From the NCBI RefSeq assembly GCF_003387475.1, contig NZ_QUNO01000036.1, positions 1 through 56,982 of the forward strand: a stretch of 56,982 bases of DNA, in the 5' to 3' direction. Both the position numbers and the translations under genes were made by a program. Numbering within the stretch: the stretch's first letter is position 1; every line of letters begins with the position of its first letter. This stretch comes from Kutzneria buriramensis (GTDB lineage Bacteria; Actinomycetota; Actinomycetes; Mycobacteriales; Pseudonocardiaceae). This document shows, piece after piece, positions 17,453-35,222 of the stretch. Below the pieces are notes generated by a model. It made no database searches. It had not been told where the DNA came from and worked only from the letters and a program-made list of their open reading frames with translations.

Positions 17453-17503
17453 CCGGCGGGGCGCGGGAGTGCTTTCTCAGGGCGTCATCCGCGCCCCGGC
17501 CGG
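17453..17503 (-). ncRNA. Conserved leader stem-loop, copy L1
   Basis: On the minus strand the arms (17489-17503 and 17453-17466) form a GC-rich stem enclosing the invariant GACGCCCTGAGAA and a CTCC-containing side. Copies L2 (18267-18319) and L3 (35171-35222) share the loop while the stem bases change in a paired fashion (C-G here, U-G in L2, U-A in L3). Downstream come CCAACCCA and a GGAAGGA ribosome site. I read this as a cis-acting 5' leader RNA. Confidence 0.6.
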
Positions 17504-17570
17504 GGTCTTCGTGCAGTTCAGGCCGGGTTTCTGCCGTGGAACGTCAGGGTGGGCCGGTATCCTGAGTGGT

Positions 17571-17879
17571 GTGAGCGACGAGGAGGAGTTCTCCCACGCG
17601 GCGCGGCTGGGCGGCCTGCGCACGCTGGTGATCGACCGTTTTGTCGCCGCCGAAGCCGCGGTTCACGTCACCGGCCCGCCGAACGACAAGGACACGATCA
17701 AGCCGTTCGTGCGGTACTTCCTGGAATGGCTGCGCGACGCCGACGGGCCAGCCGATCGGGAGCTGCGCCGTCGCGTGCTGCTGATGGTCACCGAGGGGCG
17801 CGATCGCCAGGGCTGGTCGGAGAACGACGCCGCGAAGCTCATCAAGGTCGTTGACGAGGTGTACGGCAGCATCGCCTGA
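17571..17879 (+). CDS. Hypothetical protein on the strand opposite the transfer operon, 102 aa
   Basis: GTG at 17571. The product (DEEEFSHAARLGGLRTLVID, then WLRDADGPADRELRRRVLLM) is a well-composed helical protein with no membrane segment. It is the only rightward gene between about 12.2 and 27.9 kb and lies between two leftward transfer genes, with its stop two bases from the stop of 17881-18228. Transcription of the operon would produce antisense RNA over it. Family unknown; the reading frame quality suggests it is real. Confidence 0.55.
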   Translation: MSDEEEFSHAARLGGLRTLVIDRFVAAEAAVHVTGPPNDKDTIKPFVRYFLEWLRDADGPADRELRRRVLLMVTEGRDRQGWSENDAAKLIKVVDEVYGSIA

Positions 17880-17880
17880 C

Positions 17881-18228
17881 CTACGTGGCGTTCGCGGCGG
17901 TCAGGTCGGTGACGTGCCCCTGCCGCAGTTCCTCGACGATGGCCTCCACGCAGACGTCCAACACCGTGGACCAGTACTCGGCGAGGGCGTCGAGCTGCTC
18001 GTCGGTGAGGGTGGTCAGCGGGCCGGTCTCCTCCAGCGCCTCGGCGTAGCGCACCAGCGCCAGCGCCTCGTTCTGGGTGTAGAAGCACGTGGTGGTCCAG
18101 TTGGTGAACCAGACGCGCTCGGTCCGCCAGGTCCACGGCAGCCACTTCCGCCGCTGGCGGATGGTGCCGGTCCAGGCGTAGTAGGTGCCGCTGTCGCTGA
18201 TGATCCGGCCGTTTTCCAGCGTGGCCAT
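17881..18228 (-). CDS. Hypothetical protein, 115 aa, downstream of TraB-like gene
   Basis: ATG at 18228 with GGAAGGAACGCCCG upstream. The N-terminal half is basic and Trp-rich (WTGTIRQRRKWLPWTWRTER, VWFTNWTTTCFYTQNEALAL); the second half is acidic and helical (LTDEQLDALAEYWSTVLDVC). No membrane segment is certain. It follows the TraB-like gene by 105 bases that contain leader copy L2. A transfer accessory protein is likely by context. Confidence 0.6.
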   Translation of the reverse strand: MATLENGRIISDSGTYYAWTGTIRQRRKWLPWTWRTERVWFTNWTTTCFYTQNEALALVRYAEALEETGPLTTLTDEQLDALAEYWSTVLDVCVEAIVEELRQGHVTDLTAANAT

Positions 18229-18266
18229 CGGGCGTTCCTTCCATGATCAGGGTTGGGTTGGTGGTG

Positions 18267-18319
18267 CCAGGCGGGGCGCAGGAGTTGCGTTCTCAGGGCG
18301 TCATCCACGCCCCGCCTGG
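18267..18319 (-). ncRNA. Conserved leader stem-loop, copy L2
   Basis: The arms CCAGGCGGGGCG and CGCCCCGCCTGG (12 perfect pairs, then U-G, G-U and G-C) enclose the invariant GACGCCCTGAGAA. It lies between the TraB-like gene and 17881-18228 and is followed by CCAACCCAACCC and GGAAGGA. See L1 and L3 for covariation. Confidence 0.65.
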
Positions 18320-18333
18320 GGCTTGTGTGCTGC

Positions 18334-20484
18334 TCAGGCGGCCTCGCCGCGGGCGGTCAGCTCGTAGCGGACGGCCGGGCCGGCGCCGCTCTTGGTGACC
18401 AGCCCCTCCTCGAGGAGCGCGTTGAGCAGCGTGCCGACCTGCTGGCGGGTCAGGCCGACCTTCCCGGAGATCGCACCGGGCTGGGCGAAGCCGTCGCGCA
18501 CGGCCTGCAGCACCTTCTGCTGCGACTCGCTCAGCGCCGGCTTCGTGGCCACGGCCACGGACGTCTGGGCGGGTGCCGCCGTCGGCGCTGGCGGCGTGCT
18601 GGCCGCCGCAGCACGGATGCGCGGCACCGTCGGCAGCCCCATCCGGGTCGGCCGCGGCACCGTCGGCAGCCCGGCCTTCGCCGGCTGATCCGCCGGGTCC
18701 GGCTGCCCGGCGTCTGGGCCGCTGTCTTGCCGGGCGGCGGTGCCTCGGCGGGAGTGGTCGCCGGCCAGGGCCGTGCCCCGGTCGAGCTGGCGCACGCGGG
18801 CGTGCCGCGAACGCTCGTACCAGTCCTCGACTAGCAGCAGGCCCTTCGGCAGCGGCTTGCCCTCGGCAGCCCGGTTCTTGGCGTTCTTGCGCGAGGGCAG
18901 GAACTGCCCCTTGAACGGGGCGTGCCGAGAGGCCTCGCCCAGGGTGTGTCCGAAGCCGGGGATCGACGGCAGGTCGTGCAGGTTGAACTTGCCGTTGGAC
19001 ATGATCTGTCCCTGGGCGCGCTCGTCGGTCTTCAGGCCCACCGCGTTGCCCGCGCGCAGCGAGCCGCGCAGCACGGACTTGATGAACGTCTCCAGGCTGC
19101 CGTCCTGGTCGCCCATCACGATCGCGAGGCCGACCTTGCGGGCCTCCCGGGCCAGGGCCGCCCACTTCATGACGTTCTCTTTGGTGATCACCACGTGGGC
19201 CTCGTCGACGATGACGAGGATGCCGGGGAAGTCCGGGCTCGGAGTGAAGCCGGGGTCGCCGGCGGGCCGGTTGCGCTGCCGGTGGTGCTGCATCGCGGCC
19301 AGCCGCTTGAGCACGTAGTCGACCTCGTCGGAGCCGTAGCGCTCGTGGGCGTGCTCCCACAGCTGCGGGCAGCTGGCGCCATCCTGGCCGTCGACGTGGA
19401 TGACGTAGGTCTTGCCGGTAAACAGCGCGCCGAGGCCGATCACCTCGATCAGTCGGGACTTGCCCGATCCGGTGCCGCCGATGACCATGCCGCCCCACAT
19501 CGAGTCCTCGGTGTAGAGGCGCCACAGGGCGTGGCCGATGCCGTCGGCGTACGGGCCGAGCACGATCGAGCCGCCCCCGTTCTCGAACTGCGGCTCGCGG
19601 AAGAAGACGTCCTGCTTGACCGGCGAGGAGAGCACGACGCGGAAGCGCACCAGCGCCGGGTCGTCGCTGCCCTCGAACTCCTCGGCGATCAGCTGCGAGG
19701 CGGGGTGCCCCAGCCCGGTGGCGATCTTGGACAGGCTGGACAGGACCATGTCCAGGTCGTGTGTGCCGCGGTTGAGCAGCAGCGTGTACTCGATGCCGTG
19801 CTCGAACGGCTGGCCGGAGACCAGCTTCGACCCGGCCAGCACCTTGCCGCTGCCGCCGACGTGGTCGGCCCAGCGGCGCGGGTAGAGCGCGATCTGCGAC
19901 TCGTCCACGTCGACCGGCTCGGCCACGGGCTCAGCCTTGACCGGTGCCGCCGGAGCGACCGGCGCCGGATGCCGGTGCAGCGCCCACCAGCGGGCACCGA
20001 AGGCGTAGTCGGCGGCCAGCGCGAGCGCCAACGAACCCCAGGTCAGGCCCGTCAGGACGGCGACGACCATCCACACCGCGGTCGCGGTGGTCAACAGCGC
20101 CGACCACAACGCCCAGCCCTGCAGGATCTTCTCCCGCCGGCGCAGCATCCAGTAGCCGACCGTGCCGGTGGCCGCGCAGGCCAGACCGGTCAGCAGCGCG
20201 GCGGTGCCGGCGGCCTGCACCTGCATCGACAGCGTGTGGATCGCCTCGGCCAGACCGACCAGCCCCGCGGTGATGTAGTGCGGCATCAGCTGCTGGCGGT
20301 TGCGCTGCTCGATCTCCTTGAGCAGCTGCCGCTCCGCCTTGGCCTGCGCGCGCCGCTGCGACCGGTTCTGCTGGTCGGCCTGCTCGTCGGCGGTGGCGGT
20401 GTGGTCGGCGGCCAGCTCGTCGGGCAGCGTGTCCACGGCCTCCTGGACGGTGCGGTCGATCTCGGTCTCCAGTTGGGTGGTCAT
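18334..20484 (-). CDS. traB: FtsK/SpoIIIE-type conjugative DNA translocase (TraB/TraSA-like)
   Basis: ATG at 20484 behind GGGAAGGACC. Residues about 1-65 are a charged coiled region, 70-112 and 122-160 hold about four membrane segments, then an ATPase with Walker A GGTGSGKS near residue 335 and Walker B ILVIVDEAH near 425. A Pro-rich linker with a twice-repeated GLPTVPR leads to a C-terminal winged helix (about 650-716, LSESQQKVLQAVRDGFAQPG onward) in the position used by TraB proteins to read the plasmid's clt repeats. At 716 residues it matches septal translocases of actinomycete plasmids that move double-stranded DNA between hyphae. It anchors the leftward transfer operon. Confidence 0.85.
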   Translation of the reverse strand: MTTQLETEIDRTVQEAVDTLPDELAADHTATADEQADQQNRSQRRAQAKAERQLLKEIEQRNRQQLMPHYITAGLVGLAEAIHTLSMQVQAAGTAALLTGLACAATGTVGYWMLRRREKILQGWALWSALLTTATAVWMVVAVLTGLTWGSLALALAADYAFGARWWALHRHPAPVAPAAPVKAEPVAEPVDVDESQIALYPRRWADHVGGSGKVLAGSKLVSGQPFEHGIEYTLLLNRGTHDLDMVLSSLSKIATGLGHPASQLIAEEFEGSDDPALVRFRVVLSSPVKQDVFFREPQFENGGGSIVLGPYADGIGHALWRLYTEDSMWGGMVIGGTGSGKSRLIEVIGLGALFTGKTYVIHVDGQDGASCPQLWEHAHERYGSDEVDYVLKRLAAMQHHRQRNRPAGDPGFTPSPDFPGILVIVDEAHVVITKENVMKWAALAREARKVGLAIVMGDQDGSLETFIKSVLRGSLRAGNAVGLKTDERAQGQIMSNGKFNLHDLPSIPGFGHTLGEASRHAPFKGQFLPSRKNAKNRAAEGKPLPKGLLLVEDWYERSRHARVRQLDRGTALAGDHSRRGTAARQDSGPDAGQPDPADQPAKAGLPTVPRPTRMGLPTVPRIRAAAASTPPAPTAAPAQTSVAVATKPALSESQQKVLQAVRDGFAQPGAISGKVGLTRQQVGTLLNALLEEGLVTKSGAGPAVRYELTARGEAA

Positions 20485-20582
20485 CGAACTTGGTCCTTCC
20501 CTGGTTGGACCGGTGTCGGCCACGGCGCCCGCACACCCGCGAGGAAGCGGCAGGTATGCGGGACCGAAGACGGCACCAGCGA

Positions 20583-22289
20583 TTACTCGGCGGTGACGAA
20601 TTCCTTGTTGCCGGCGTCAGGGGTGGCGTTGTACGCCTCCTTGACACCGCGGTGGCTCTCCAGCTCGCCCTGCAGGCTGGTGGCGGCCGCGCCGGCCGCC
20701 TCCAGCTGGGCCAGGGCGGCGTTCAGCTCGGCGACGGCGGCGGTCATCTGCTCCTGCACGCTGGCGACGTCGGTCAGGGCCTGGCCGGTGACACCGCCGG
20801 CGGCGAGGTCGGCCTGGGCCTTCTCGCAGCTGGCGGCGGCCTCGTCACCGGTGGGCACCACGGCACTGATCTGGTCGCGGGTGTGGGTGCAGTACGCCGA
20901 GAGCTCGGCGGCGTACGAGATGGCGGCCTCCAGGCCGGTGATCTCCGTGCTCGTCACGGGAAGCTCCATTCGAGTGGTCGTGGTGCTGCGCTGCTTGAAC
21001 GGGATGACGTTGTCGGGAAGTGCGGTCGTGTTGTTGTCGGCGCTGGCCTCCTTCGTGCTGGTCGCGGCATCGGCGCTGGACTCCTCCGCAGCGCCGTCGG
21101 TCTTCTCGCCGGCCTTGGCGGCGGCTTCGGCTTCGGCGATGCGCCGCAGGTCCTCGGCGACGGCCTCCTGCACCTCCGGCGGCGCGTCGGGCGGCGCGCA
21201 GTAGATGTCGGCCGGATCGATCGCCCCGCCGTAACGCTGGCTGAGCAGCGCCAACGCCTCGACGTCCTCGCCGCCGGGGACGACCGTCGCGTGCACGCCA
21301 GGGGTGGTGCGGATGGCGTCGAGCATGTCCGCGCGGGTGGCCACCGGCAGCGCCATCCACTCCGAGGCCGGGATCTGCGTGTGCACCCCGGTGTTGATCG
21401 CGTTGTGCACCGCGTCGACCGTGTCCTGCTGGGCCGGGGTGATCGGGTACATCGCCTCGCTGGCCTTCGCGGCCATGTCGGTGCTGGCCGCGTACTGCGC
21501 GGCCCGCACGGTCAGGTCCGTCGCCAGGGCGCGCGTCGCGTCCCCGACCGGCCTGGTCCAGCCGCCGTGCACCTGCTCGTCGATCAGCTCGCGACGCGGC
21601 ACGCCGTTGACGTCGGCCGCCGTCGGGGCGGTCGCGTTGAAGCCGGCGCCGCCCCGAGCCGCAGCCGGCGCGGCCGGACCGGGCGCTGGGGCAGCCGCGG
21701 CCGCCGTCGGCGGCGTGGTCGCGGCGGTTCGAGAAACCCAATCGAGGTGCTGCTCACAGGTCGAACGCCCTTCCAGCGCGTCGTTCGTGCACCAGAAGGA
21801 CTTGCCATCGACGAAGTACGACACCACGCACTTCGGGCGGGCCGGCTTCGCCTCATCGCCTGCACCCGCCGGCGTCTCCGCGCCTGCGGCCGCGCCGTCA
21901 ATCACGGCGGGTTCCGGCAGCGTCGCGTCGAACCCGGCCGGGTCGACGGCCACCGGCTCGGCCGGGTCACCATCTGCCGCCGCGTCCTCGAGGGCCCACT
22001 TCTCCCGATCCCGGTTGATCTTCTCGGCGGCCTTGCGCTCGCGCTTTTCCTTGCGGTGCTCGGCCATGAGCTCGCGCTTGTGGTGTGCGGAGTCCCAGGC
22101 GTCGTCGAGCAGGCCGGCCATGTAGCGGCCGAACGACGAGGCCGGCACCGGACGGCCGCCGTCGGCGCGGGCCTCCAGCTTCTTCTTGCGGTACTCGTGC
22201 CGCGGCGGCTCGTGGCCGCGGATGGTGGCGGTGGTGTCCTCGTACAGGCGCACCACCAGGTAAGCGAGGAGCAGGGCGAACAGGAACAT
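20583..22289 (-). CDS. Membrane-anchored multidomain transfer protein, 568 aa, with duplicated C-terminal domain
   Basis: ATG at 22289 with AGGGAGGTGAAACCCC upstream. Residues 1-18 are hydrophobic (FLFALLLAYLVVRLY), an anchor or uncleaved signal. A charged coiled region follows (to about 110), then a short Cys motif (CVVSYFVDGKSFWCTNDALE ... C), an Ala/Pro linker, a helical domain (about 230-400) and from about residue 440 the domain duplicated at 13857-15161. The join at STTTTRMELPVTSTE retains an internal GTG with TGGAG before it, so the last domain might also be made alone. It lies directly upstream of the TraB-like gene. Structural role in the transfer complex is plausible but not shown. 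Confidence 0.6.
   Translation of the reverse strand: MFLFALLLAYLVVRLYEDTTATIRGHEPPRHEYRKKKLEARADGGRPVPASSFGRYMAGLLDDAWDSAHHKRELMAEHRKEKRERKAAEKINRDREKWALEDAAADGDPAEPVAVDPAGFDATLPEPAVIDGAAAGAETPAGAGDEAKPARPKCVVSYFVDGKSFWCTNDALEGRSTCEQHLDWVSRTAATTPPTAAAAAPAPGPAAPAAARGGAGFNATAPTAADVNGVPRRELIDEQVHGGWTRPVGDATRALATDLTVRAAQYAASTDMAAKASEAMYPITPAQQDTVDAVHNAINTGVHTQIPASEWMALPVATRADMLDAIRTTPGVHATVVPGGEDVEALALLSQRYGGAIDPADIYCAPPDAPPEVQEAVAEDLRRIAEAEAAAKAGEKTDGAAEESSADAATSTKEASADNNTTALPDNVIPFKQRSTTTTRMELPVTSTEITGLEAAISYAAELSAYCTHTRDQISAVVPTGDEAAASCEKAQADLAAGGVTGQALTDVASVQEQMTAAVAELNAALAQLEAAGAAATSLQGELESHRGVKEAYNATPDAGNKEFVTAE
20586..20968. repeat. Duplicated 380-bp segment, copy B
   Basis: Partner of 14775-15152. 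Here the reading frame ends with TAA just past the repeat, whereas copy A reads through. The upstream join is also different, so the duplicated unit is a complete small gene or domain. Confidence 0.85.
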
Positions 22290-22311
22290 GGGGTTTCACC
22301 TCCCTTTCTGA

Positions 22312-22704
22312 TCAGAAGATCGGGTGGACGGCTTGGATGACGGCCAGGACCAGCACGGCGGCGGCGATCACGCGCGACCACCGCTCGAAGATCCAGTCGA
22401 GATAGAGGAACAGGGCCCGGAACGGGATCAGCACGCCCGTGCCGGCGCGGGAGCCCAGCCGCACCTGCTCGTCGTCGGGCAGGTGCTGGCCGTACATCGC
22501 CCACATCCAGCTCTGCTTGAGGGCGGGCCGGCCGTTCTCCCACAAGTCCGGCGGGGTCCAGTGCTGCCGCATCCCGGTCGCCCATGCCTGGGCGTACTCG
22601 TTCAGCGACACCGGGGCGGTCTCGGTGCCGATGACCGGCGTGTCCGCCGGCGGGGTAGCCGTGGTGCCGGCGCTGGGCGCCGGGTCCACGTTCGGAGTGC
22701 TCAT
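22312..22704 (-). CDS. Single-TM protein of the transfer operon, 130 aa
   Basis: ATG at 22704; the start overlaps the stop of 22701-22949 by four bases. The N-terminal 90 residues are soluble (SLNEYAQAWATGMRQHWTPP and a Trp-rich block) and residues about 95-128 are hydrophobic (VLIPFRALFLYLDWIF, IAAAVLVLAVIQAV), so the protein is C-terminally anchored. Twenty-two bases separate it from the next gene. Probably part of the mating apparatus; family unknown. Confidence 0.6.
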   Translation of the reverse strand: MSTPNVDPAPSAGTTATPPADTPVIGTETAPVSLNEYAQAWATGMRQHWTPPDLWENGRPALKQSWMWAMYGQHLPDDEQVRLGSRAGTGVLIPFRALFLYLDWIFERWSRVIAAAVLVLAVIQAVHPIF

Positions 22705-22949
22705 GACTTTCGTCCTCGCGTCTCGTAGTGGGTGAGCAGCTCCTCGGCGGGGGCGACCAGGTCGGCCACCGCGGTGGCGACGATCGCTTTGCGCTGCTCA
22801 GGAGTGGCGCATTTGGAGAGTGCGAGCCGGAGCAGGTCGACGGCCGGGCCGAGCTGGTCGACGTCGGTCTTGATCTGCTTCACGCGCTGCCAGTAGCGGT
22901 TGCGCCAGGCGGCGACTCGCTCGGCGCGGCTTCCGCCGCGGCCAGCCAT
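22701..22949 (-). CDS. Small basic protein, 82 aa
   Basis: ATG at 22949 coincides with the end of the upstream gene, and its stop overlaps the next start, so it is fully coupled. The N-terminus is Arg-rich (GRGGSRAERVAAWRNRYWQR) and the remainder an amphipathic helical pair. No motif recognised. Context: small accessory gene of the transfer operon. Confidence 0.6.
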   Translation of the reverse strand: MAGRGGSRAERVAAWRNRYWQRVKQIKTDVDQLGPAVDLLRLALSKCATPEQRKAIVATAVADLVAPAEELLTHYETRGRKS

Positions 22950-23377
22950 CAGTGACCGCCCGCGACCAGGTAGCTCAGGCCACTGGTGCCGAAATGGGTC
23001 ACGGCGTCGACAAGCCCCGCGCCGTTGGCGGCGACCGGGCCGGAGGCGATGATGACCAGCAGCGGCAGCATGATCAGCCCGATCAGCTCCGGCTTGTCCG
23101 CCTTGCGGTCATGCCAGAACCCGTAGACCACCAACGGGATGCAGATCAGCACGGCCAGCGCCGCGAGTAGGGCCGCGCTGACGCCGATCCAGCCGGCCGG
23201 GATGCCCAGCAGGCCGCGCAGCAGGCCGGCCACCCAGGCGCCGAGGTTCGTGTTGGCGAACGAGCAGGCGCCGATCGCGGCGAAGATCGCCACGACCCAC
23301 CACTTGCGCCACTTCTTCCACTTCTTCTTGAGCAGGTACAACATTCCGAACGCGAACAGGCACACCAGCCAGCTCAT
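22949..23377 (-). CDS. Polytopic membrane protein, 142 aa
   Basis: I start at the ATG at 23377, eight bases after GGAGGTG; a longer frame upstream only reads through the leader. The protein has about four hydrophobic segments (residues about 3-16, 24-50, 57-88, 98-118) with a strongly basic loop KKKWKKWRKWW after the first, setting that loop in the cytoplasm. Resembles the small membrane proteins that accompany TraB in actinomycete plasmids. Its leader carries GATCCACAGCGA. Confidence 0.6.
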   Translation of the reverse strand: MSWLVCLFAFGMLYLLKKKWKKWRKWWVVAIFAAIGACSFANTNLGAWVAGLLRGLLGIPAGWIGVSAALLAALAVLICIPLVVYGFWHDRKADKPELIGLIMLPLLVIIASGPVAANGAGLVDAVTHFGTSGLSYLVAGGH

Positions 23378-23399
23378 GCGCGCACACCTCCATCTCAGG

Positions 23400-23417
23400 T
23401 CGCTGTGGATCGGTTTC
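23400..23417 (-). promoter_or_regulatory. GATCCACAGCGA leader element, copy 2
   Basis: Reads GAAACCGATCCACAGCGA on the minus strand, 8 bases before the GGAGG of the membrane-protein gene 22949-23377. A hairpin (23471-23506) lies about 55 bases upstream, as in the Nudix leader. Confidence 0.6.
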
Positions 23418-23470
23418 TTGCCCGGGATCTCGCCTGGTTGCCGCCAGGTGAGGCCCGTCTCGGGAGCCGG

Positions 23471-23506
23471 CGGCCGGGCGGGTTGGTGAGTTCGGGGCCG
23501 CCCGGC
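23471..23506 (-). terminator. Hairpin after gene 23526-24512
   Basis: GGCCGGGCGG (23471-23480) pairs perfectly with CCGCCCGGCC (23497-23506). It follows the stop at 23526 by about 20 bases and precedes leader element copy 2; terminator, attenuator or processing hairpin inside the operon. Confidence 0.6.
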
Positions 23507-23525
23507 CACCGACGTCAGGGGTGGG

Positions 23526-24512: not shown

Positions 24513-24787
24513 TTCTCCTCCTTCTTGCCGTTCCCGCTGCTCAGAGCCTCGACGATGTGATCCCATACGTCCCGCTCCTCGCGTACGAGGTCGGTCAGCC
24601 ACGTGCCGGAATCGACGAAACGACCGGCCATTTGGCGGTCCTGGGCGATCTCGTCCAGCTCGGAGAGCAGCCCCCGCACCCGACGACCGGTCTCGGTCTC
24701 GGCGGTGGCGGTGGTCAGGTAGGCGGCGAACAACTGCCGCTCGCTGGTCTTGCCGGTGCGGACGATGCCCTTGATCGTGCTCGTCAT
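24509..24787 (-). CDS. Small acidic helical protein, 92 aa
   Basis: ATG at 24787, with four-base overlaps at both ends, so translation is coupled with its neighbours. The protein is soluble and helical (SELDEIAQDRQMAGRFVDSG, EERDVWDHIVEALSS). No motif recognised. Context: accessory gene of the transfer operon. Confidence 0.6.
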   Translation of the reverse strand: MTSTIKGIVRTGKTSERQLFAAYLTTATAETETGRRVRGLLSELDEIAQDRQMAGRFVDSGTWLTDLVREERDVWDHIVEALSSGNGKKEEK

Positions 24788-27521: not shown

Positions 27522-27539
27522 CTCGTCTCCTCTCGACAC

Positions 27540-27591: not shown

Positions 27592-27801
27592 GGGCACCGT
27601 CAACAGGAGGTTGAGCGGCGCGCGTACGTTCCACCATCGGCAACGAGTCCTTTTGCGACAGTCGCGAGCGGATGCGGCTCCTGCTACACCCGTCCGACTC
27701 GTTGCCAGCTCAAGCTCTCGGCTTTGTGACCCCTGCGAGCAGCGAAGATGTCACTCTGGAGTTGTCAAAGAACGATGTTGAGAGCATCGATCGAGGGCGC
27801 C

Positions 27802-27862
27802 GGACATGGCCACAGGTTGACCCCGGACATCTGCGGGACATGGGCTGGACAATCGCGGACAT
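27802..27862. repeat. Helically phased GGACAT repeats
   Basis: GGACAT or GGACAA begins at 27802, 27825, 27836, 27847 and 27857, i.e. steps of 23, 11, 11 and 10 bases, one or two turns of DNA. They lie 60-120 bases upstream of the TPR regulator gene at 27923 in a non-coding stretch. The array looks like a multi-site operator or activator site on one face of the helix. Confidence 0.55.
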
Positions 27863-27922
27863 GGTGTAGGCGCAGCGGTGTCGGTGACACACGATCAAGG
27901 GGCGATGCGGAAGGAAGTGACC

Positions 27923-29194
27923 ATGTCGGAGCCTCGGACAGTCCTCGATGAACTGATCACTAAGTGGCACCTGACCAGGGACGCGGCAGCGAAGCTGGTC
28001 GACGAAGCTGGGTGCCCGGTGACCGGACGGCATCTCGCCGGCATCGCTCGTGGCCAACGACACGCGGGAGCCCAGCTCACCGCCGCCATCGAGCGTGCCT
28101 TCGGGAGGCCGATCACCGAACTGCTCGTCCCGTACACCGGGCAGTGGCTGCCGAGTAACCCGCCTGGTCAGACCGCATCTTCGGCAATCAGCACGGATAC
28201 CGAGGAGGCATTCGCCTTGGCCGCCCAGCGCGCATATCAGTACAAGCTCGCTTACCAGACCAGGATCGACACGTCCGCCCTGGCGGACGACGTGCGGTAC
28301 CTCGCCCAGGCGTACCCGCAGCAGCCGCTCGCCGAGGTGATCTCCCCGCTCGTTGCCGCCCAGCAGGCGGTCTACGAACAGCTCGAACAAGGCACGGTGC
28401 ACACCCAGTCCGCCCGTGAGCTGCACTTTCTTGCCGGGATCACGACCGGCATGATCGCGAGGGCTGCTCACGACTCCGGTGATCCGTCGCGTGCTGTCGA
28501 GCTGGCCCGCTCGGCTGCGATGGCTGGCGAACTGGCTGGGCACCGTGGCCTTCAGGCATGGATCTCCGGCCTGTTGTCGCTGGTCACCTACTGGGCTGGC
28601 CGTCCGCAGGAGTCAATCCGGCACGCGCAGCGCGCCGCACACCTTGCCAGCGGCACCGCGTCCACGGTCACGGTGTGGGCCGCGGTCAGCCAAGCCCGCG
28701 CCTGGGCCAAGCTGCGTAACCCCGGCGGTGTCGAAAGTGCTCTGAGCAGCGCCAACGCCGCTGAGGAACACGCCACAGGGGACGATCTCGACGCCTTCGG
28801 CGGATTGCTGACCTTCTCCCGGGCCCGTGCGCTCTACTACACCGCCGAGGCATCGGCGACAGTCGGCCTGACTGACGCTGCGGCCCGGTACGGCAACGAG
28901 GCGGTCGAGGCATACCGCGACCCGACCAGCGACTACTGGGCTTTCGGAGACTCGGCCGGCGCGTCCGCCGCACTCGCCACCGCCTACATTCAGCAAGGCG
29001 AGGTCGAGGGCGCGAACGCACTCCTGGTCCCCGTCTTCGATCTCCCGCCGGTCCAGCGGACCAACGGCATCATCAAGTGCATCCAACCCGTGTACGAAGC
29101 CGTGAGCAGCAGCGATACCGGCGAAGCGGGCCGCGAGCTCAGCGAACGAATCGAGGCGTTCAGCCGCGTGCCGATGCGAGCGGTGGGCCATTGA
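27923..29194 (+). CDS. HTH/TPR-type transcriptional regulator, 423 aa
   Basis: ATG at 27923 after GGAAGGAAGTGACC. The N-terminal 70 residues look like a divergent helix-turn-helix (LITKWHLTRDAAAKLVDEAG, then GRHLAGIARGQRHAGAQLTA). From about residue 110 the protein is a series of helical pairs in TPR style (AAQQAVYEQLEQGTVHTQSA, RSAAMAGELAGHRGLQAWIS). Length and layout match actinobacterial XRE-TPR regulators such as the one at 10016. It overlaps the GNAT start by four bases and is preceded by phased GGACAT repeats that may be its binding sites. Confidence 0.7.
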   Translation: MSEPRTVLDELITKWHLTRDAAAKLVDEAGCPVTGRHLAGIARGQRHAGAQLTAAIERAFGRPITELLVPYTGQWLPSNPPGQTASSAISTDTEEAFALAAQRAYQYKLAYQTRIDTSALADDVRYLAQAYPQQPLAEVISPLVAAQQAVYEQLEQGTVHTQSARELHFLAGITTGMIARAAHDSGDPSRAVELARSAAMAGELAGHRGLQAWISGLLSLVTYWAGRPQESIRHAQRAAHLASGTASTVTVWAAVSQARAWAKLRNPGGVESALSSANAAEEHATGDDLDAFGGLLTFSRARALYYTAEASATVGLTDAAARYGNEAVEAYRDPTSDYWAFGDSAGASAALATAYIQQGEVEGANALLVPVFDLPPVQRTNGIIKCIQPVYEAVSSSDTGEAGRELSERIEAFSRVPMRAVGH

Positions 29195-29736
29195 TCAGTC
29201 TCACTGGCGAACTGGTGACCCTGCGGGATCTCGCCAAGACCGACGTGGACGACGTGTTCGCCATCGTCGGCGACCCCGCAGTCACGAAGTGGCTGTCCTT
29301 CGACACCCGCACCCACGCGCAGGCCACCGAGATGGTGGCCGGCGTGCTCGAGCGCCAGGCGCACCAACCCCGCACCGAGTACTACCTTGCCGTTTGTGCT
29401 GCTCGGCACGGGTTCATCGGCTTCTGTCGACTCGGCCTGGCCGGCGTGCAGGCAGGCAAACTCGGCTACGCCATCCGCGCCGACGTTCAGGGCCGCGGCT
29501 ACGCCACGGATGCCTGCCGCACCATGCTCCGGTTCGCGTTCGATCGGTCGCGCCTGCACCGCGTGTCTGCGGCCGTCGGCCCAGACAACGCCGCCTCCAT
29601 CGCCGTCGTGCGCAAGCTCGGCTTCACCCACGAAGGCCGGCTTCGCGATCACGTGCACACCAACGGCGCCTGGCGAGACAGTGAGCTGTTCTCCCTCCTT
29701 GTCAACGAGTGGGAACGAGGCCTCGGCGGCCGATGA
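29191..29736 (+). CDS. GNAT-family N-acetyltransferase (RimJ/RimL type)
   Basis: A TTG at 29191 overlaps the upstream stop (TTGA). The 181-residue protein follows the RimJ/RimL layout: GELVTLRDLAKTDVDDVFAI at the start, the acetyl-CoA binding motif near VQGRGYATDACRTMLRFAFD (Q/R-G-x-G-Y/A) and the late signature HRVSAAVGPDNAASIAVVRK-LGF. It should acetylate an amino group of a small molecule or protein. Coupling to the TPR regulator suggests a joint transcription unit; substrate unknown. Confidence 0.85.
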   Translation: MISLTGELVTLRDLAKTDVDDVFAIVGDPAVTKWLSFDTRTHAQATEMVAGVLERQAHQPRTEYYLAVCAARHGFIGFCRLGLAGVQAGKLGYAIRADVQGRGYATDACRTMLRFAFDRSRLHRVSAAVGPDNAASIAVVRKLGFTHEGRLRDHVHTNGAWRDSELFSLLVNEWERGLGGR

Positions 29737-29879
29737 TGACTTCCTCCCTATCAGCGCGGACGCTGCCTGTCCGGCGAGTAACTGACAACTCGCCGGGCGA
29801 CTGCCGCCGGTCGAAAAACTTCAGTGGATCACGGCGTGTCGTCACCACCCCCGCAGTTTTCCCGGCAAAATCGGCTGCC

Positions 29880-30101
29880 ATGGCCGCAAGATCAGGTCGA
29901 AAGCACCGCCGTCACGGCACCCCGGCGCGAGACGTGGCTATCGCCACGTATCTGCTTGAGCAGGTCGACGCCGAGGGGGCTGCGCGGGGGCTCTCCTGCG
30001 CCTTGATGGCGGACCAACTGATCGAACTCGGCCTTCGCGCCCTTCGCGCAGGCCAGGGCGGTGGCCAACAAGACGACTTGGGAGTGCTGATGATCTCGTA
30101 A
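29880..30101 (+). CDS. Small basic protein upstream of rep, 73 aa
   Basis: I use the ATG at 29880; the reading frame upstream looks non-coding. The 73-residue product is basic at the N-terminus (ARSGRKHRRHGTPARDVAIA) followed by two helices (TYLLEQVDAEGAARGLSCAL, MADQLIELGLRALRAG). The layout suits a small DNA-binding protein of ribbon-helix-helix type. Located just before the structured rep leader, it may regulate replication; inference only. Confidence 0.45.
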   Translation: MAARSGRKHRRHGTPARDVAIATYLLEQVDAEGAARGLSCALMADQLIELGLRALRAGQGGGQQDDLGVLMIS

Positions 30102-30548
30102 AACAACGAAGCGGCCTCACCCTGCCAGGTAAGACCGCTTCCTCGAAGTTTTGGGCGACCCTGCCAGGTCGCCGTTTGTCCCTCGCTGATCGCTGTCCGG
30201 CTGCCAACCGGTAGCGACCAGAGGCCCACTTGCTAGGTGGGTCGTTCATCCCCTCGCCAAGGGATTTCGTGTGCCTACGATAACGCAGGCTCACGACACA
30301 CACCAGGCACTGCTTTGTGCTGCGTGTCGTGAGTCATGTCATCAGAACGTTTCCGCTGCTCGGAGGCAGTCCGCGCGCCTCCGAGCGATAGTGCGCGTCC
30401 CGTGCCGGACCGTCGGTGAGGCACGCTTTGTCGCGGAGCGAACCCTCGCCGACTCTGATTTCCCTTGCCGCGTAAGGGATATCGGCCGATCACCTCGGGA
30501 CGGCGCCCCTGGCCAGCCCACGGCCGCCCAGCGCGCGGTGGTGGTCGC
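30102..30548. other. 447-bp structured intergenic region upstream of rep
   Basis: Contains three stem-loops with related loops: 30108-30141 (GAAGCGG/CCGCTTC, inner ACC-ctgcca-GGT), 30154-30173 (GGCGACC-ctgcca-GGTCGCC) and 30225-30241 (CCCAC/GTGGG with ttgcta). A fourth, longer hairpin has 10-bp perfect arms at 30290-30299 and 30324-30333 with an inner GCAC-tgcttt-GTGC. The first may terminate the upstream gene; the series could be copy-number control RNA or an origin. No credible gene. Confidence 0.5.
30290..30333. repeat. Long hairpin before rep
   Basis: CTCACGACAC and GTGTCGTGAG are exact inverted repeats with 24 bases between, in which GCAC/GTGC pair again. It lies about 215 bases before the rep start and may be a terminator, attenuator or protein-binding site. 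Confidence 0.55.
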
Positions 30549-32468
30549 ATGACCACCACCGAACCGGCCCCGACTGCTGTTTTCGCTGCTCAGCGGCTTG
30601 AATGTGTGGCGTGTTGTCGCCCGTACGGGCGACGCCGCGCCCCGCTGGTCGATGGCGACGCGCTGTTCGACTGCGCCGATCTGGTCGTGTGCGACCAGTG
30701 CTGGCACCTGGCCGGCGGCGCCGACGCGGTCCAGACCGCCCTCGCCGGCGACGACGGGCCGATGGAGCCGCTGCTGGTGTTCGACCCGGCCTTCGAGCAG
30801 CTGCTGGTGGCCGCGGACGAGTACGACCAGCTGCACCCGATCGACCGGTTCCTGGTCGAGTCCGGCATCCGCTGGTCGGTCCTGCGGTACATCACCGTCC
30901 CGGCCCGCTGCGACCTAGTGCGCTGGGTGCTGGAACGCGTCCCACCAGCGCATACCCGACCGACCGACTCGCCGGCCGTGTGGATCGAGGCCGTCGAGGC
31001 CCGGATCCGCGAGCAGACCGGCGACGAGTTCAAGTACAACGCGAAGCGCCGGCGCTGGTGGCGCATTGCCAACGTGCTCCGCTGCTGCTCAGACAGGGGA
31101 CGGCGGCCGCTGACCTGGGTCGCGCAGGAGGAGATCGCGGCCGCGGTGGGCTGTTCGACGCGCACGGTGCGGCGGTGCGTGGCCTGGCTGCAGCGCGAGG
31201 GCCTGCTGTTCGAGGTGCTGCCCGGCTGCCAGCTGCCGCAGATGGTCGCCCCGGACGGCGAGACCGCCGAGGAACGCGCCGACCGGGACCGCCGGATGGC
31301 GGCGGCGATCGCCGCCGAGCAGGCCGCGATGGCCCGCGCCGAGGCCGAGCTGGACGCCGTGCGCGCCGGCCTGCTCGGCGACCAGGCGGCCGCGGCCGCC
31401 GAGGCGGCCCTCTCCCCCGAGGAGGCGGCCGCGCTGGCCGCCGTGGACGACCTGGAGCCCGGCCTGGTGCAGCTGGCGCCGGTGTACGAGCTGCGGGTGC
31501 CCGTCAGCGAGGCCGAGCAGGCCGAGGAGGCCGCGATCAGCCGCGCGCACACGGTGCTGCGCAGCCCCGGCGAGCAGCTGCTGGCCGAGCACCAGGCCGA
31601 GCAGGTGCACCCGGCCAACGTGCTGCTCTACAGCGCGGTGACCGTCGTCCACGCCGGCGGCGGGCACGCCGTGCACGACCCGCTGGACCTGGCCTACCTC
31701 GACCCCAGCCCGATCTGCCCCGACTGCGGGCCGGTCGTCGGCTACCTGCGCGGTGCCGACCTGGGCGCTGACCTGCACAAACACCAAAATGGCCACCCCC
31801 CGCAGGTGTGTTGGGCTGATCACTTGAAGTCCAGTTCCGTACAACCTGTGGATAAAGGACGGGCTTCGCCCGGCTCAGACATGGAGGAGTTGTCTTCAGT
31901 TAGCACTGAAGACTCAATAAGCAGGGAAACTAGCCCTGATTTGGCCGCTGAGCCCGGAACAGCGCCCGCCGAAGGGGATCACCCCAAAGCGCGTCAGTCG
32001 GAAGCTGTGCGGGCCGCTGAGTGGCTTCTCCGGTCCCGACTGCATCCAGTGGTCTGCGACGACGTGTCGGTGCGGTGGCTCGCCGCGCAGATCCGGGGCA
32101 GCCACCTGCTCGATCGGTGGGACTGGACCTGGGACGACCTGGCCGACCTGCTGCACGGCTTCCCGGAGAACACCCACCTCCCCCGGTTCATCCGGTCCGC
32201 CCGGGCCTGGATCCGCGCCCGGTTCCAGCGCGCGACGCCGGCGCTGTCGCCGAGCAAACTCAAGATCATCCGCGAGATCGAGCGGACCAGCCCGGCCCTT
32301 CGGGGCCGCCACCAGGCCGAGGCCGAGCACGTTCGTCAGGCCGAGATCGCCGCCCGCCGCGCGGCCGTCGCGGCGTGCGGGATGTGCGACGAACTCGGCT
32401 GGCTGCACGTGCCGGATGGGACGCCCACCGTGCGCTGCAACCACGACCCGGACACCAGCGGATGGTGA
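30549..32468 (+). CDS. Putative plasmid replication initiator with winged HTH, 639 aa
   Basis: I start at the ATG at 30549; a TTG at 30465 is possible. The N-terminus has two Cys pairs (CVACCRPYGRR, VVCDQC). Residues about 189-235 form a winged HTH (LTWVAQEEIAAAVGCSTRTV, RRCVAWLQREGLLF) resembling actinobacterial plasmid initiators. Residues about 420-490 are a low-complexity linker whose DNA holds a DnaA box and inverted repeats. The C-terminal part is helical and ends with a Cys motif (CGMCDELGWLHVPDGT, C). Its position beside parA and the origin-like DNA supports a Rep assignment, although no family signature is certain. Confidence 0.6.
   Translation: MTTTEPAPTAVFAAQRLECVACCRPYGRRRAPLVDGDALFDCADLVVCDQCWHLAGGADAVQTALAGDDGPMEPLLVFDPAFEQLLVAADEYDQLHPIDRFLVESGIRWSVLRYITVPARCDLVRWVLERVPPAHTRPTDSPAVWIEAVEARIREQTGDEFKYNAKRRRWWRIANVLRCCSDRGRRPLTWVAQEEIAAAVGCSTRTVRRCVAWLQREGLLFEVLPGCQLPQMVAPDGETAEERADRDRRMAAAIAAEQAAMARAEAELDAVRAGLLGDQAAAAAEAALSPEEAAALAAVDDLEPGLVQLAPVYELRVPVSEAEQAEEAAISRAHTVLRSPGEQLLAEHQAEQVHPANVLLYSAVTVVHAGGGHAVHDPLDLAYLDPSPICPDCGPVVGYLRGADLGADLHKHQNGHPPQVCWADHLKSSSVQPVDKGRASPGSDMEELSSVSTEDSISRETSPDLAAEPGTAPAEGDHPKARQSEAVRAAEWLLRSRLHPVVCDDVSVRWLAAQIRGSHLLDRWDWTWDDLADLLHGFPENTHLPRFIRSARAWIRARFQRATPALSPSKLKIIREIERTSPALRGRHQAEAEHVRQAEIAARRAAVAACGMCDELGWLHVPDGTPTVRCNHDPDTSGW
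31790..31930. other. Candidate origin of replication inside the rep coding sequence
   Basis: Within the linker-coding part of rep lie a perfect DnaA box TTATCCACA (complement of 31848-31856), a 9-bp inverted repeat GTCTTCAGT-tagc-ACTGAAGAC (31892-31913) and a GGGC-ttc-GCCC hairpin (31861-31871), in DNA visibly richer in A/T than the flanks. In RepA_N-type plasmids the origin lies in the middle of rep, so this is a reasonable candidate. Confidence 0.45.
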
Positions 32469-32492
32469 CTCACCAGGCCGGTCACTGTCCGT

Positions 32493-32613
32493 ACTGGAAA
32501 GTGGAAACTGGAAAGCCGGCACGCCGGCCGCGAAAGGGGGCCCCAACGCGCACCGCGCGCTGCGCGCGTGGAGCGAGGCTCGGAGCCTAACACGGAGCGT
32601 GACACTTTCCAGT
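32493..32613. terminator. Inverted repeat between convergent rep and par genes
   Basis: ACTGGAAAGTG (32493-32503) is exactly inverted at 32603-32613, with an extra direct ACTGGAAAG at 32507-32515. The interval contains a GCGC-dense patch (32548-32570). It may be a large terminator structure or a partition site. Confidence 0.45.
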
Positions 32614-32636
32614 TGCTGAGCCTCTCACCGGCCGCC

Positions 32637-32650
32637 AAAACGCCCGTTTT
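32637..32650. promoter_or_regulatory. Imperfect operator, AAAACGCCCGTTTT
   Basis: Differs from the AAAACGGCCGTTTT palindrome by one base in the centre. It lies between convergent genes rather than before a start, so its function is doubtful. Confidence 0.3.
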
Positions 32651-32666
32651 CGCAGACGTTCGACGG

Positions 32667-33473
32667 TCAGCGCCGCGGCCGCGGCTTGGCGACCGCGCCG
32701 GCGGCCTGGTCCACACCGAGCAGCGAGGCGAGATCGGCGGCCAGCTCCGGCGTGAGCCCGTGCCGTTCGGCAGCGGCCTCGACCGCCGCGGCGAGCTCCT
32801 CGGCGGTCACGCCGGCCTCCTGCGCGCGTTCGATCTCGGCGACGGCCATCGAGCCTCGGCTGTCGATTTCGGCGAGCAGCCGGGCCAGTCGGCCGGCCGC
32901 CGCCGACACCGGCAGCAGCGCCTGCGCGGCGACCTGCCGCCGGGCGCGGCGCGCCAGCCGTGCCGCCCGGCGCGCCACCACGTCGTCGGCCGGCTCGGCC
33001 ATGGGCGCCTTCGCGGCCGCCGCCGGCGCGCGTTCGGTTTTGCGGCCGGCAGCGCCGCTCGGTCGCCGCTGACTGGCGCGCACCGGCTTGTCCCGCGGTG
33101 CGGCTGCATCCGGCTCGCGTTGCGGCTCGGCGGCCGCCGAGACGGTCCCGTCCGAGCTGCTCACGGGCTTGTCACTGGCGGCGGGCGCGCTCGGCGTGGC
33201 CGGCAGCGCCGTGGCAGCCTCGCCGGCGGCCGCCGCCTGGCCCGCGCTGTCCTGCCCGGTCTCCTGCTCGGCGTCGGCCGAGTTTGCGCTGGTCGCCGCG
33301 CCCGATTCGGCAGGAGGCGTTGTTGCCGGGTGGCGCGGTGTCGGCGGCTGACGGTGCTTCCGGCGGCCCTCCGTGGTGCGGGCCGTGAGCGCACTGAGCC
33401 CGCCGCCGGGCTGTGGTTGAGCGGATCCCTGCTGCTCAGAGGTGGTTTCAGGCTGCGGCAGCGCGCTCGACAT
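32667..33473 (-). CDS. Putative ParA partner protein, 268 aa
   Basis: GTG/ATG start at 33473, overlapping the parA 3' end by 26 bases. The first 140 residues are low-complexity Pro/Ala/Gln/Thr with basic patches; residues about 150-262 are helical (DDVVARRAARLARRARRQVA, SMAVAEIERAQEAGVTAEEL) and may bind DNA. A gene directly downstream of and overlapping parA normally encodes the centromere-binding partner; this one lacks a recognisable ParB or RHH motif, so it would be a non-canonical partner. Confidence 0.5.
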   Translation of the reverse strand: MSSALPQPETTSEQQGSAQPQPGGGLSALTARTTEGRRKHRQPPTPRHPATTPPAESGAATSANSADAEQETGQDSAGQAAAAGEAATALPATPSAPAASDKPVSSSDGTVSAAAEPQREPDAAAPRDKPVRASQRRPSGAAGRKTERAPAAAAKAPMAEPADDVVARRAARLARRARRQVAAQALLPVSAAAGRLARLLAEIDSRGSMAVAEIERAQEAGVTAEELAAAVEAAAERHGLTPELAADLASLLGVDQAAGAVAKPRPRR

Positions 33474-34233
33474 GGGTCACCGCCTCCAGAGCGATGGTGT
33501 GGATCTCGGACACGTACGGCTCGTGCGCCTTGGGGATGGCTGGGGCGGCCGACACCGGCATGTACTTCTTGCGGGTCCGCAGCCACCGGTGGGCCGACAC
33601 CGGCGAGGACACCGGCGCCCCGACCTTCTCGGTCATCTGCGCCAGCCTCCGGACCTCGAAGCCCGGCGCGACCGACGGCACGGCGTTGGGCACCACGAGC
33701 AGCGGGAACGAGGCCAGGTCGTTGAGCATCTGCTCCAGCGCGTCCAGCGGTTTGGTCTCCAGCAAGGCCGGCGTGAGCGTCAGGTGCGCGGCCATCACCG
33801 CGCCGAACGCGGACTCGCCGTCGCCGGGGTGGGTGTCCACCACCACGACCCGGCCCCAGTGCTTCGCCCAGGCCGTGAGCAGGTCCGCCATGTGATCGCG
33901 GCTCGGCTCGTTTGGCTGGAAGTCCGGGTGGCACGGCAGGAGATCCGGGCGCCGGCGGGCCGTGCCCGGCACCAGCACCGGCGGCCGCCCCTTCTCGATC
34001 GCGTCCAGCAACGGAGCCCGAACCCGCTGGTCGTGCCGGTATCCCAGCGCCTTCGAGGCGTTGCCCTCGTTCCAGTCCAGGTCACACAGGACCGCGTCGA
34101 GCTGGTGCGCCAACTCGATCGCCAACGTCGTCTTCCCGACGCCGCCCTTGAACGAGGCCACCGTGATGATCAGGTAGCCGTACCGGTTGAGCAGCGCATC
34201 TATCCGCGCGCGGAGACCGTCCATGCGCGGCAT
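33448..34233 (-). CDS. parA: ParA-family partition ATPase
   Basis: ATG at 34233. A deviant Walker A (KGGVGKTT, residues 29-36), the switch motif VVVVDTHPGDGES and the later PNAVPS match ParA/Soj ATPases. At 261 residues and without an N-terminal HTH, it is of the short (type Ib-like) class, whose centromere usually lies upstream of parA. It should move plasmid copies over the nucleoid together with the overlapping downstream gene product. The GCGC-rich repeat region begins just upstream. Confidence 0.9.
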   Translation of the reverse strand: MPRMDGLRARIDALLNRYGYLIITVASFKGGVGKTTLAIELAHQLDAVLCDLDWNEGNASKALGYRHDQRVRAPLLDAIEKGRPPVLVPGTARRRPDLLPCHPDFQPNEPSRDHMADLLTAWAKHWGRVVVVDTHPGDGESAFGAVMAAHLTLTPALLETKPLDALEQMLNDLASFPLLVVPNAVPSVAPGFEVRRLAQMTEKVGAPVSSPVSAHRWLRTRKKYMPVSAAPAIPKAHEPYVSEIHTIALEAVTHVERAAAA

Positions 34234-34239
34234 CCTCCC

Positions 34240-34760
34240 GCACGACCGGTCGCCAAGGCACGCATGACACCTACGCGATTCGGGCGCGTCACGCTAAGCG
34301 CCCGGGCACTACGCCTAGCGCGCGCCGCGCGTCAGCCAGCGCAGCGCGCGCCGGGCGCTAACGCGACGCGTTCGCGCTGCTCGCAAGCTTGCCCAGGGCG
34401 CGCTGGCGCACATGACGCGCTGTCCGCGTTGCGCGTCACGAGCGCCCAGCGCGCGCAGCGCGCCATGGGCGAGACCGCGCCCGGCGAGCGCATTCGGATA
34501 GGCGTGCATCGAGCGTGAGCGCTCCGGCGAGAAGGGCGCGATGGGCGACTACGAGCGTCGTGCGTACAGGCGCGTTGCGCGCGTACGCGCATAACACAAA
34601 TAGGCGCTTACGCGCCAATCCGCGCATCGTGCCTGCTCGCGATACACGCGAGACCCGCGTAGCGAGCATGGGCGACCAGTGCGCGTACTCGCGATGGTCG
34701 GGTGGATCCGTCTCGCGCGTTCGCTCACCGCGGACATGGGCGACCACCTGCCAGTGTCAC
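34240..34760. repeat. GCGC-dense non-coding region, candidate centromere
   Basis: About 500 bases packed with GCGC, GCGCGC and short mirrored units such as CGCATAACACAAATAGGCGC and TACGCGC, unlike any other part of the window in density. ATGGGCGA recurs at about 34464, 34540, 34668 and 34735, the last two followed by CCA. There is no credible gene: reading frames through it are Arg-rich artefacts. Position directly upstream of a short-form parA suggests the partition centromere. Confidence 0.5.
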
Positions 34761-34787
34761 CGGTCCGGAGCAATCTCGCCCGGCACA

Positions 34788-34819
34788 CCTTGTTTTATTC
34801 ACTAGCTACTGCATAATTG
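34788..34819 (+). promoter_or_regulatory. Promoter of the 34.9-kb operon (32-bp repeat, copy 2)
   Basis: Exact inverted copy of 25738-25769. TTGTTT (34790-34795) and CATAAT (34812-34817) are 16 bases apart. Confidence 0.65.
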
Positions 34820-34836
34820 GCGGTGGTGACACGAAA

Positions 34837-34870
34837 CGCCCTGCTCACGGCGGCAACCGGGTGCAAGGCG
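34837..34870 (+). ncRNA. Conserved hairpin leader of the 34.9-kb operon
   Basis: CGCCCTGC (34837-34844) and GCAAGGCG (34863-34870) form the stem; the enclosed 25 bases (34841-34865) equal those of the transfer-operon leader at 25691-25715, while the outer stem bases have changed with pairing largely kept. It begins about 19 bases after the -10 box. Confidence 0.6.
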
Positions 34871-34880
34871 TCGGGACAAC

Positions 34881-34892
34881 GATCCACAGCGA
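34881..34892 (+). promoter_or_regulatory. GATCCACAGCGA leader element, copy 5
   Basis: Exact 12-mer located eight bases before the GGAGGA ribosome site of the gene at 34907, the same relative position as in the leftward leaders. Confidence 0.6.
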
Positions 34893-34906
34893 ACCTGGAG
34901 GAACTC

Positions 34907-35152
34907 GTGGCCGATCAGCGTTGGGCGCCTGCGGAGCAGCAGGTGCCGGAGCTGCTGGAAGACCTGATGCACATGGGCTCGGTCGAGTACAGCGGCAACG
35001 TGATCCAGCAGTACAAGCACGTCGACACCCGCCGCTACATCAACCTGGACGGCGCGGGCCAGGCGTGGCAGATCGCGGTGCATCCCGACACGGGGGACCT
35101 CGCCGCCCGGCGCATCGACCTCGACGAGGCCAAGGCCCTCGTCCTGCGCTGA
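34907..35152 (+). CDS. Small hypothetical protein, 81 aa
   Basis: The GTG at 34907 follows GGAGGAACTC; reading further upstream only translates the leader. The 81-residue protein contains QVPELLEDLMHMGSVEYSGN and a beta-rich second half (RRYINLDGAGQAWQIAVHPD). No membrane segment. First gene of the rightward operon; family unknown. Confidence 0.6.
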   Translation: MADQRWAPAEQQVPELLEDLMHMGSVEYSGNVIQQYKHVDTRRYINLDGAGQAWQIAVHPDTGDLAARRIDLDEAKALVLR

Positions 35153-35170
35153 GCAGCGCGAACAGAAGTT

Positions 35171-35222
35171 CCAGGCGGGGCGTGGACGACGCCCTGAGAA
35201 GCAACTCCCACGCCTCGCCTGG
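35171..35222 (+). ncRNA. Conserved leader stem-loop, copy L3
   Basis: Arms 35171-35185 and 35208-35222 pair over 15 bp with one G-U, enclosing GACGCCCTGAGAA. Compared with L1 and L2 the base pairs change compensatorily. CCAACCCAACCC and GGGAAGGAAC follow, then the start at 35256. Confidence 0.65.

Follow-up and report, generated by a model that had tools for sequence, protein, structure and literature searches.

We describe a family of hairpins that stand shortly before gene starts on plasmid-like elements of the Pseudonocardiaceae and that, judged from sequence, are best read as one family of cis-acting leader RNAs with a predicted regulatory role. What is new is the behaviour of the loop: its centre is common to an element and that element's close relatives and is replaced between other elements, whereas stem similarity does not have this pattern. 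The loop is specific to a group of elements, not a family-wide constant. The starting point was a window of 56,982 nt (the whole stretch of Kutzneria buriramensis DNA that was analysed), in which a first-pass annotation had proposed a cis-regulatory RNA family in three copies; that proposal is still the best reading with 18 accepted copies in 11 genomes, all Pseudonocardiaceae.

Three hairpins in the Kutzneria buriramensis window

The copies in the window are L1 (17451-17504, minus strand), L2 (18266-18320, minus) and L3 (35170-35223, plus), and in predicted folds each is a hairpin of 54-55 nt with one long stem and a loop of 22-23 nt (shuffle z of -2.15, -2.79 and -3.55, respectively). L1 has a 14-bp stem with one bulged C, its loop string at 17474-17486 and a start codon at 17421, 29 nt on; L2 has a 15-bp stem, the string at 18290-18302 and a start codon at 18228, 37 nt on; and L3, also with a 15-bp stem, has the string at 35188-35200 and a start codon at 35256, 32 nt on. 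The 13-nt string itself, GACGCCCTGAGAA, is identical in the three copies and occurs exactly three times in the window, which are also all its occurrences in the 11,968,322-base genome; the numbers expected from base composition are 0.0018 (window) and 0.38 (genome). The stem-loops and their identical apical string are as the first-pass annotation described them, and the pair changes it listed are right when the alignment is read by eye (C-G, U-G and U-A at one pair; G-C, G-U and G-C at the next). Like the families of Rfam 15, the hairpins look like structured RNA with covariation, but no Rfam 15 family reaches its gathering score anywhere in the window, and a permissive scan of 17300-18500 (E up to 5) gives a single match, at E 2.8 and outside the hairpins.

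Each hairpin is followed by CAACCCA and a GGAAGGA ribosome site (17429-17435, minus, for the L1 ORF; 18236-18242, minus, for the L2 gene; 35242-35248, plus, for the L3 gene) and then by the gene start. This arrangement, which the annotation had pointed out, is present at all three copies but is not specific to them: since hairpin-less genes with starts at 20484 and 36034 also have a GGAAGG-type site after C/A-rich sequence, neither the ribosome site nor the C/A-rich stretch is particular to the motif. The genes themselves differ. Behind L1 lies a 34-aa ORF (17317-17421, minus), with a similar 32-aa ORF behind the orthologous Solihabitans copy Sol_L1; the following gene (17078-17320) begins within this 34-aa ORF, which is possibly a leader peptide or a coupling ORF. 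Behind L2 lies a 115-aa gene (17881-18228, minus), 84% identical in Solihabitans, with no Pfam or NCBIfam match. The 112-aa gene behind L3 (35256-35594, plus) has homologues behind leaders in Prauserella muralis and in genomes G254 and G302, and its product is predicted to be a three-helix bundle (mean pLDDT 89). The gene after it (35572-35991, plus) encodes an RRQRL motif-containing zinc-binding protein (NF041638; mean pLDDT of the predicted structure 77), and neither of these two predicted structures has a PDB match at E 0.001 or better.

The annotation had also placed two of the copies in a conjugation operon. L2 does stand directly behind an FtsK/HerA-like ATPase gene (18334-20484, minus), but L2's gene and L1 are separated by an opposite-strand gene (17571-17879, plus), so the two leaders need not belong to one transcript. 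This 102-aa gene starts with a GTG only a few bases past a TATCCT box and looks leaderless; it has homologues in P. muralis (62%), Solihabitans (85%) and G302 (34%).

Relatives, position before genes and pairing

An exact search for the loop pattern in 297 Pseudonocardiaceae genomes matched five, of which one besides the window's own, P. muralis, holds a true relative. The covariance-model search that the annotation had suggested found relatives, with all accepted copies in Pseudonocardiaceae. A model built from five copies (R1) matched 25 of 390 genomes of the family at E 0.05 or better, and one built from 11 copies (R2) matched 20 of 390 family genomes at E 0.01 or better, together with 14 of 397 genomes of the order and 14 of 394 of the class; these searches apply stricter filters to sets of more than 40 genomes, and weak relatives may escape them. 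With the FtsK/HerA-like protein as query we retrieved the P. muralis plasmid pPmurDSM45305 and a Solihabitans fulvus contig with two more leader copies. Plasmid pLS2-1 of Pseudonocardia sp. HH130630-07 is likewise leader-bearing, with copies pLS_P1 and pLS_P2.

We accepted forward-strand R2 matches of at least 45 bits (16 copies) and added Sol_L1 (41.3 bits) and the P. muralis copy Pmur_S2 (25.2 bits) since both carry the exact string GACGCCCTGAGAA. Ten of the 20 genomes of the R2 family search are thereby included, and the remainder were either left out or kept as undecided. Undecided and outside the count are G295 (L121, 42.2 bits, with a qualifying start at 47 nt), pBCI2-2 (L109 17693, 40.1 bits), G379 (L122), G387 (L127) and a second hairpin of G302 (G302_b, L071 4555-4605), and five weak model matches (L113-L117) also fall outside the set. 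Forty-five model rows (44 places) were rejected, most of them by eye as coding-like or without the loop edges, as was a match on a Rhodococcus plasmid (H85) after inspection; no copy was accepted from the order and class genomes searched with R2 outside the Pseudonocardiaceae. Among viral contigs, the 22 stretches with the exact loop pattern that we inspected have no stem, and against phage records the leader sequence gives two weak matches, both to one Xanthomonas phage. A narrow search found no published description of this leader RNA, which does not establish its absence from print. The uncounted hairpin of G302 is a perfect 17-bp one with the loop ATCCGACGCCGGGAT, placed before a homologue of the window's 63-aa gene 16890-17081, and is possibly a different leader type.

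The position of the copies is regular. A ribosome-site motif followed by ATG or GTG and an ORF of at least 28 codons is found behind all 18 copies, a count that was not made blind, as the context was seen before acceptance (the score criterion alone gives 16/16). The distance to the start codon is 29-45 nt in 16 copies, the longer ones being 65 nt in G366 and 66 nt in the G084_2 copy. On the opposite side of the hairpins the same rule finds no start in 18 attempts, at random places in the same sequences it finds 320 in 3000 (62 at 29-45 nt), and among the rejected model matches 9 in 45 (2 at 29-45 nt). One ORF of the set, that of Pmur_S1, is doubtful, for it runs over an opposite-strand homologue of 17571-17879. 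The genes behind the leaders are of many kinds: besides the 115-aa protein, the 32-34 aa ORF and the 112-aa helical protein, there are a protein of 288 aa that shows FtsK-like similarity, a member of the HNH endonuclease family and, in G116, an MMGRTHA-type protein of 256 aa, which we take to be a membrane metal-dependent hydrolase. Different genes can even follow a conserved leader site, as L1 precedes its 34-aa ORF and then an 80-aa gene, and behind its Solihabitans counterpart the 32-aa ORF is followed by an MMGRTHA protein of 267 aa.

The stem is supported by changes on both of its sides. In a model-fitted alignment of 14 copies, standard pairs account for 96.6% of 207 cells and both sides change in six of the 15 stem pairs; the covariation score is 0.291, compared to 0.147 for shuffles that ignore relatedness (sd 0.021; none of 500 reaches it), and slid versions score no more than 0.085. 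The covariation seen by the annotation in three copies is borne out when more copies are aligned. Further pair types, 10 in number, are not exceptional (133 of 500 shuffles as high). The annotation had also named a coding segment as the outcome that would count against it; one-base indels distinguish the loops of the copies, and upstream genes, where present, stop before the stem, so the segment is not coding-like. A mini-ORF ATG ACG CCC TGA was considered and rejected: its ATG is found only in L1, L2, Sol_L1 and Sol_L2, with other triplets in four other copies that share their loop string. The common scaffold is a stem of about 15 pairs, of nearly constant length across copies, usually with GGA(C/U)GA at the loop's 5' edge and often with GCAC near its 3' edge.

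Pair types also bear on the strand. The 15 copies with equal arms have 15 G-U pairs and no A-C, which points to an RNA of the gene strand; the model may prefer G-U over A-C when picking copies, but the copies with GACGCCCTGAGAA can be recognised from the loop string alone, and five of these with equal arms have eight G-U and no A-C (counted by eye from the arms). The opposite strand folds more stably in 16 of the 18 copies, probably since the loop is A/C-rich and its complement can pair, so folding energy cannot tell the strand, and pair type and position do. Compensatory changes and a sense-strand position before starts (18/18) are both as expected of a structured cis-regulatory leader RNA, which would also change the expression of the gene behind it.

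The same evidence weighs on a reading of the hairpins as DNA. A single-strand conjugation promoter of the Frpo type was rejected by argument: L1 and L2 are oriented opposite to L3 on the contig, which would not suit one entering strand. More generally, the inverted repeat might be a cruciform or an operator, a class-specific site for the FtsK/HerA-like translocase or for a repressor. Relatives of the ATPase are encoded in nine of the 11 leader-bearing stretches, the window's included, and in six of these nine (window, P. muralis, Solihabitans, pLS2-1, G116 and G084) the ATPase gene has a leader no more than 0.45 kb behind it; the distance is within 2.4 kb in G366 and G033 and about 8 kb in G302. 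The ATPase was not found in G254, where the contig ends near the leader, and has no match in the whole G163 genome. The C-terminal stretch of the ATPase has weak winged-helix matches, below curated cut-offs, and the FtsK-family transfer protein TraB of Streptomyces plasmids recognises 8-bp clt repeats (clt/TRS; PMC4170104). Here too an FtsK-family gene is carried on a plasmid, but the recognition sequences of TraB are short DNA repeats, unlike strand-specific hairpins before genes. The sps palindrome is also a conserved palindromic motif of actinomycete plasmids, but it is located inside spdA2 in pIJ101 (upstream of spdA in pSVH1), and SpdA2 binds it as DNA (PMC4170104). A DNA site accounts neither for 15 G-U against no A-C nor for the single orientation before starts in 18 of 18 copies; moreover, L3 is about 15 kb from the ATPase gene, and TRF at a score of at least 40 finds no period-8 array near that gene, a search that shorter or spaced repeats would escape. 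We judge a DNA site very unlikely and continue with a leader RNA as the preferred reading.

Loop classes follow the element

The loops fall into seven classes. Class A, GACGCCCTGAGAA, comprises the three copies of the window, three of P. muralis and two of Solihabitans; class B, GACGCCGACCA, the two copies of pLS2-1; class C, CTTCCACAG, those of G254, G033 and G116; class D, AAGGCCCTAGGAAGC, that of G302; class E, GACGCTTGCCTGC, that of G366; class F, GACACCTCTCACAGC, the two copies of G084, some 57 kb apart; and class G, GAGCCGCCAAGC, that of G163. The two G084 copies are nearly the same from end to end, and one may have arisen through recent duplication. Each of the five elements with at least two accepted copies keeps to one class; the other six of the 11 elements are single-copy, and three of the five are relatives of one another. 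Mean loop similarity is 0.86 within an element (9 pairs), 0.82 between elements of the same class (24) and 0.56 between classes (120), compared to mean stem similarities of 0.73, 0.71 and 0.75 for the same three groupings; as classes were assigned from the loops, the class values partly restate that choice, but the within-element value does not. None of 20000 permutations of loops over copies reaches the within-element loop value, in a procedure that treats copies as independent though the class A elements are related.

The exchange can be seen at a single orthologous site, that of L3 before the 110-112 aa gene, where the window and G254 are alike in the stem (0.93) and differ in the loop (0.52); the G254 loop is of the class found in G033 and G116, from another genus. 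Classes differ inside one genus (B and E in g5; C and G in g33), and class C spans two genera (g21 and g33), so loop classes follow the element and not the host. A leader RNA would be expected to drift in its stem and to hold its recognition part constant, and copies of one class do so; between classes it is the stem that stays and the presumed recognition part that changes. Kissing loops were rejected as an account of the loops, since by eye only the class D loop is partly palindromic.

This distribution bears on two further readings. The hairpins might be processing or stability elements, polycistronic mRNA being divided into protected segments by a host nuclease, or by the hairpin alone, with the loop kept for the nuclease. 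Several copies do stand between genes (L2, L3, Pmur_S1, pLS_P1, pLS_P2 and G254), the nearly constant stem length would suit such a role, and other plasmids have unrelated strong hairpins behind an FtsK-like gene and before a ribosome site (L107 8478, L106 16585). A host nuclease, however, predicts neither differing loops in one genus nor one loop in different genera, nor does it predict identical loops within an element on diverged stems; we think this reading unlikely, if the most deserving of attention among those set against ours. An antisense small RNA of the element, rather than a protein, would likewise give element-specific loops. No 9-nt complement to the class A loop end CCCTGAGAA occurs elsewhere in the window, in P. 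muralis (38.5 of 124 kb) or in the Solihabitans contig (14.4 of 15.7 kb), and though a shorter seed or a chromosomal RNA could still serve, we hold this to be highly improbable.

Predicted mode of action and element context

The reading we prefer, a portable leader RNA that is read by an element-specific trans factor and probably acts on translation, is one that, taken as a whole, we regard as having about an even chance. The hairpin would form in RNA of the gene strand, as the pairing changes indicate, on a scaffold that by computation precedes the start codons of unrelated genes by some 30-45 nt. The centre of the loop, which as a pattern is specific to an element or its close relatives, would be the specificity element; a factor of that element, probably an RNA-binding protein, would read it in several mRNAs and so control the translation of several genes together, beside the ribosome site. 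Transcription of the leaders and the sign of the effect are likewise parts of the scheme that we infer. Action on translation is suggested by the set distance to the start, which the shared spacer and ribosome site could also keep. Translational control would need a factor because the hairpin itself leaves the ribosome site uncovered in the predicted folds of L1, L2 and L3. More tentatively, and with some doubt, we suggest private RNA regulons: each element would tag its own genes with the common scaffold, the loop being the address for its own factor, co-resident relatives with other loops would be controlled separately, and as elements diverge the stem would be conserved and its loop replaced, with lock and key changing together.

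Two kinds of known system invite comparison. Phage coat protein hairpins and ribosomal protein leaders are hairpins near a ribosome site that are bound by protein. Our leaders share that position, but they precede unrelated genes in several units rather than one autoregulated gene, and stand upstream of the ribosome site, not over it. In lambdoid phages, the nut sites (boxA and boxB) are the best-known partner-specific case: the hairpin recurs in several leaders of one mobile element, and its loop differs between relatives together with the cognate protein, as is the rule for boxB and N. The present hairpins also recur in several leaders, with loops that differ between relatives, but their stem is about 15 bp long, their loop has 17-23 nt and their distance before start codons is near-fixed, and no partner protein was found. 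The boxB loop is where N binds, and Rho and N have the nut region in common (PMC3526286).

Control of transcription of the nut type would have a linear box and the hairpin recruit an element-encoded antiterminator, or have the hairpin complex shield a Rho site in the C-rich spacer. Boxes of the form CTGARCWGCRC, much like the class A loop string and in the same direction, do precede the hairpins of the window: CTGAACTGCAC at 17511-17521 (minus), intergenic, before L1; CTGAGCAGCAC at 18327-18337 (minus), overlapping the stop codon of the FtsK/HerA-like gene, before L2; and CTGAGCAGCGC at 35149-35159 (plus), overlapping the stop codon of ORF 34817-35152, before L3. The box is kept before Pmur_S2 and Pmur_S3, as CCGAACAGCAC in G302 and partially before Sol_L1, and no intrinsic terminator was found at the hairpin sites (in a scan allowing loops of 3-8 only, with no T run behind the hairpins by eye). 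The pattern occurs elsewhere in the window too, and in the flanks inspected it is absent before pLS_P1, pLS_P2, G254 and G033; nor does antitermination need a near-fixed distance to the start codon. A nut site should have a boxA-like element before every hairpin, which was not found, and the boxes present need not be boxA. We rate control of this type as quite unlikely, and by analogy would describe the hairpins as leader RNAs of one family, constant in the stem and exchangeable in the loop, that resemble partner-specific RNA sites of mobile elements, lack the regular box of nut sites and have no Rfam match.

The putative trans factor was sought among the 569 called ORFs of the 11 stretches, where no gene family is present in all 11; WhiB-like genes occur in seven. 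The RRQRL zinc protein adjoins leaders in the window, P. muralis, G254, G302 (as the second gene) and pLS2-1 (as the gene before P1), and is found in six of the eight leader-bearing genomes searched, the exceptions being G366 and G033. We rejected the leader as an RNA operator of this protein, for which the protein should be present in every leader genome. Its zinc part has a weak likeness to L37Ae (E 0.03-0.07), which is a lead only. Loop swaps on a kept stem would make the hunt for a partner well defined: the partner gene should change with the loop class. If the preferred reading holds, an RNA family absent from Rfam would give shared post-transcriptional control to accessory genes on plasmid-like elements in a family with many antibiotic producers, with the loop as an exchangeable specificity tag, and it could yield orthogonal RNA-protein pairs for actinomycetes.

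Other features of these elements were noted in passing. Plasmids of Amycolatopsis sp. TNS106 and Saccharothrix sp. AJ9571 have unrelated strong hairpins behind an FtsK-like gene or before ribosome sites (L107 8478 and 12073; L106 16585), which are perhaps further leader families. In the window, genes for a MoxR-type AAA ATPase, a VWA protein and a DUF6744 protein lie in a row (40860-45245, plus), kept in P. muralis and G254. An AbiTii-like protein is encoded at 45897-46904 (plus; PADLOC, E 3.7e-33), and a MobA/VirD2-like relaxase at 51017-52576 (plus) has relatives in the stretches of G366 (43%) and G084 (30%).
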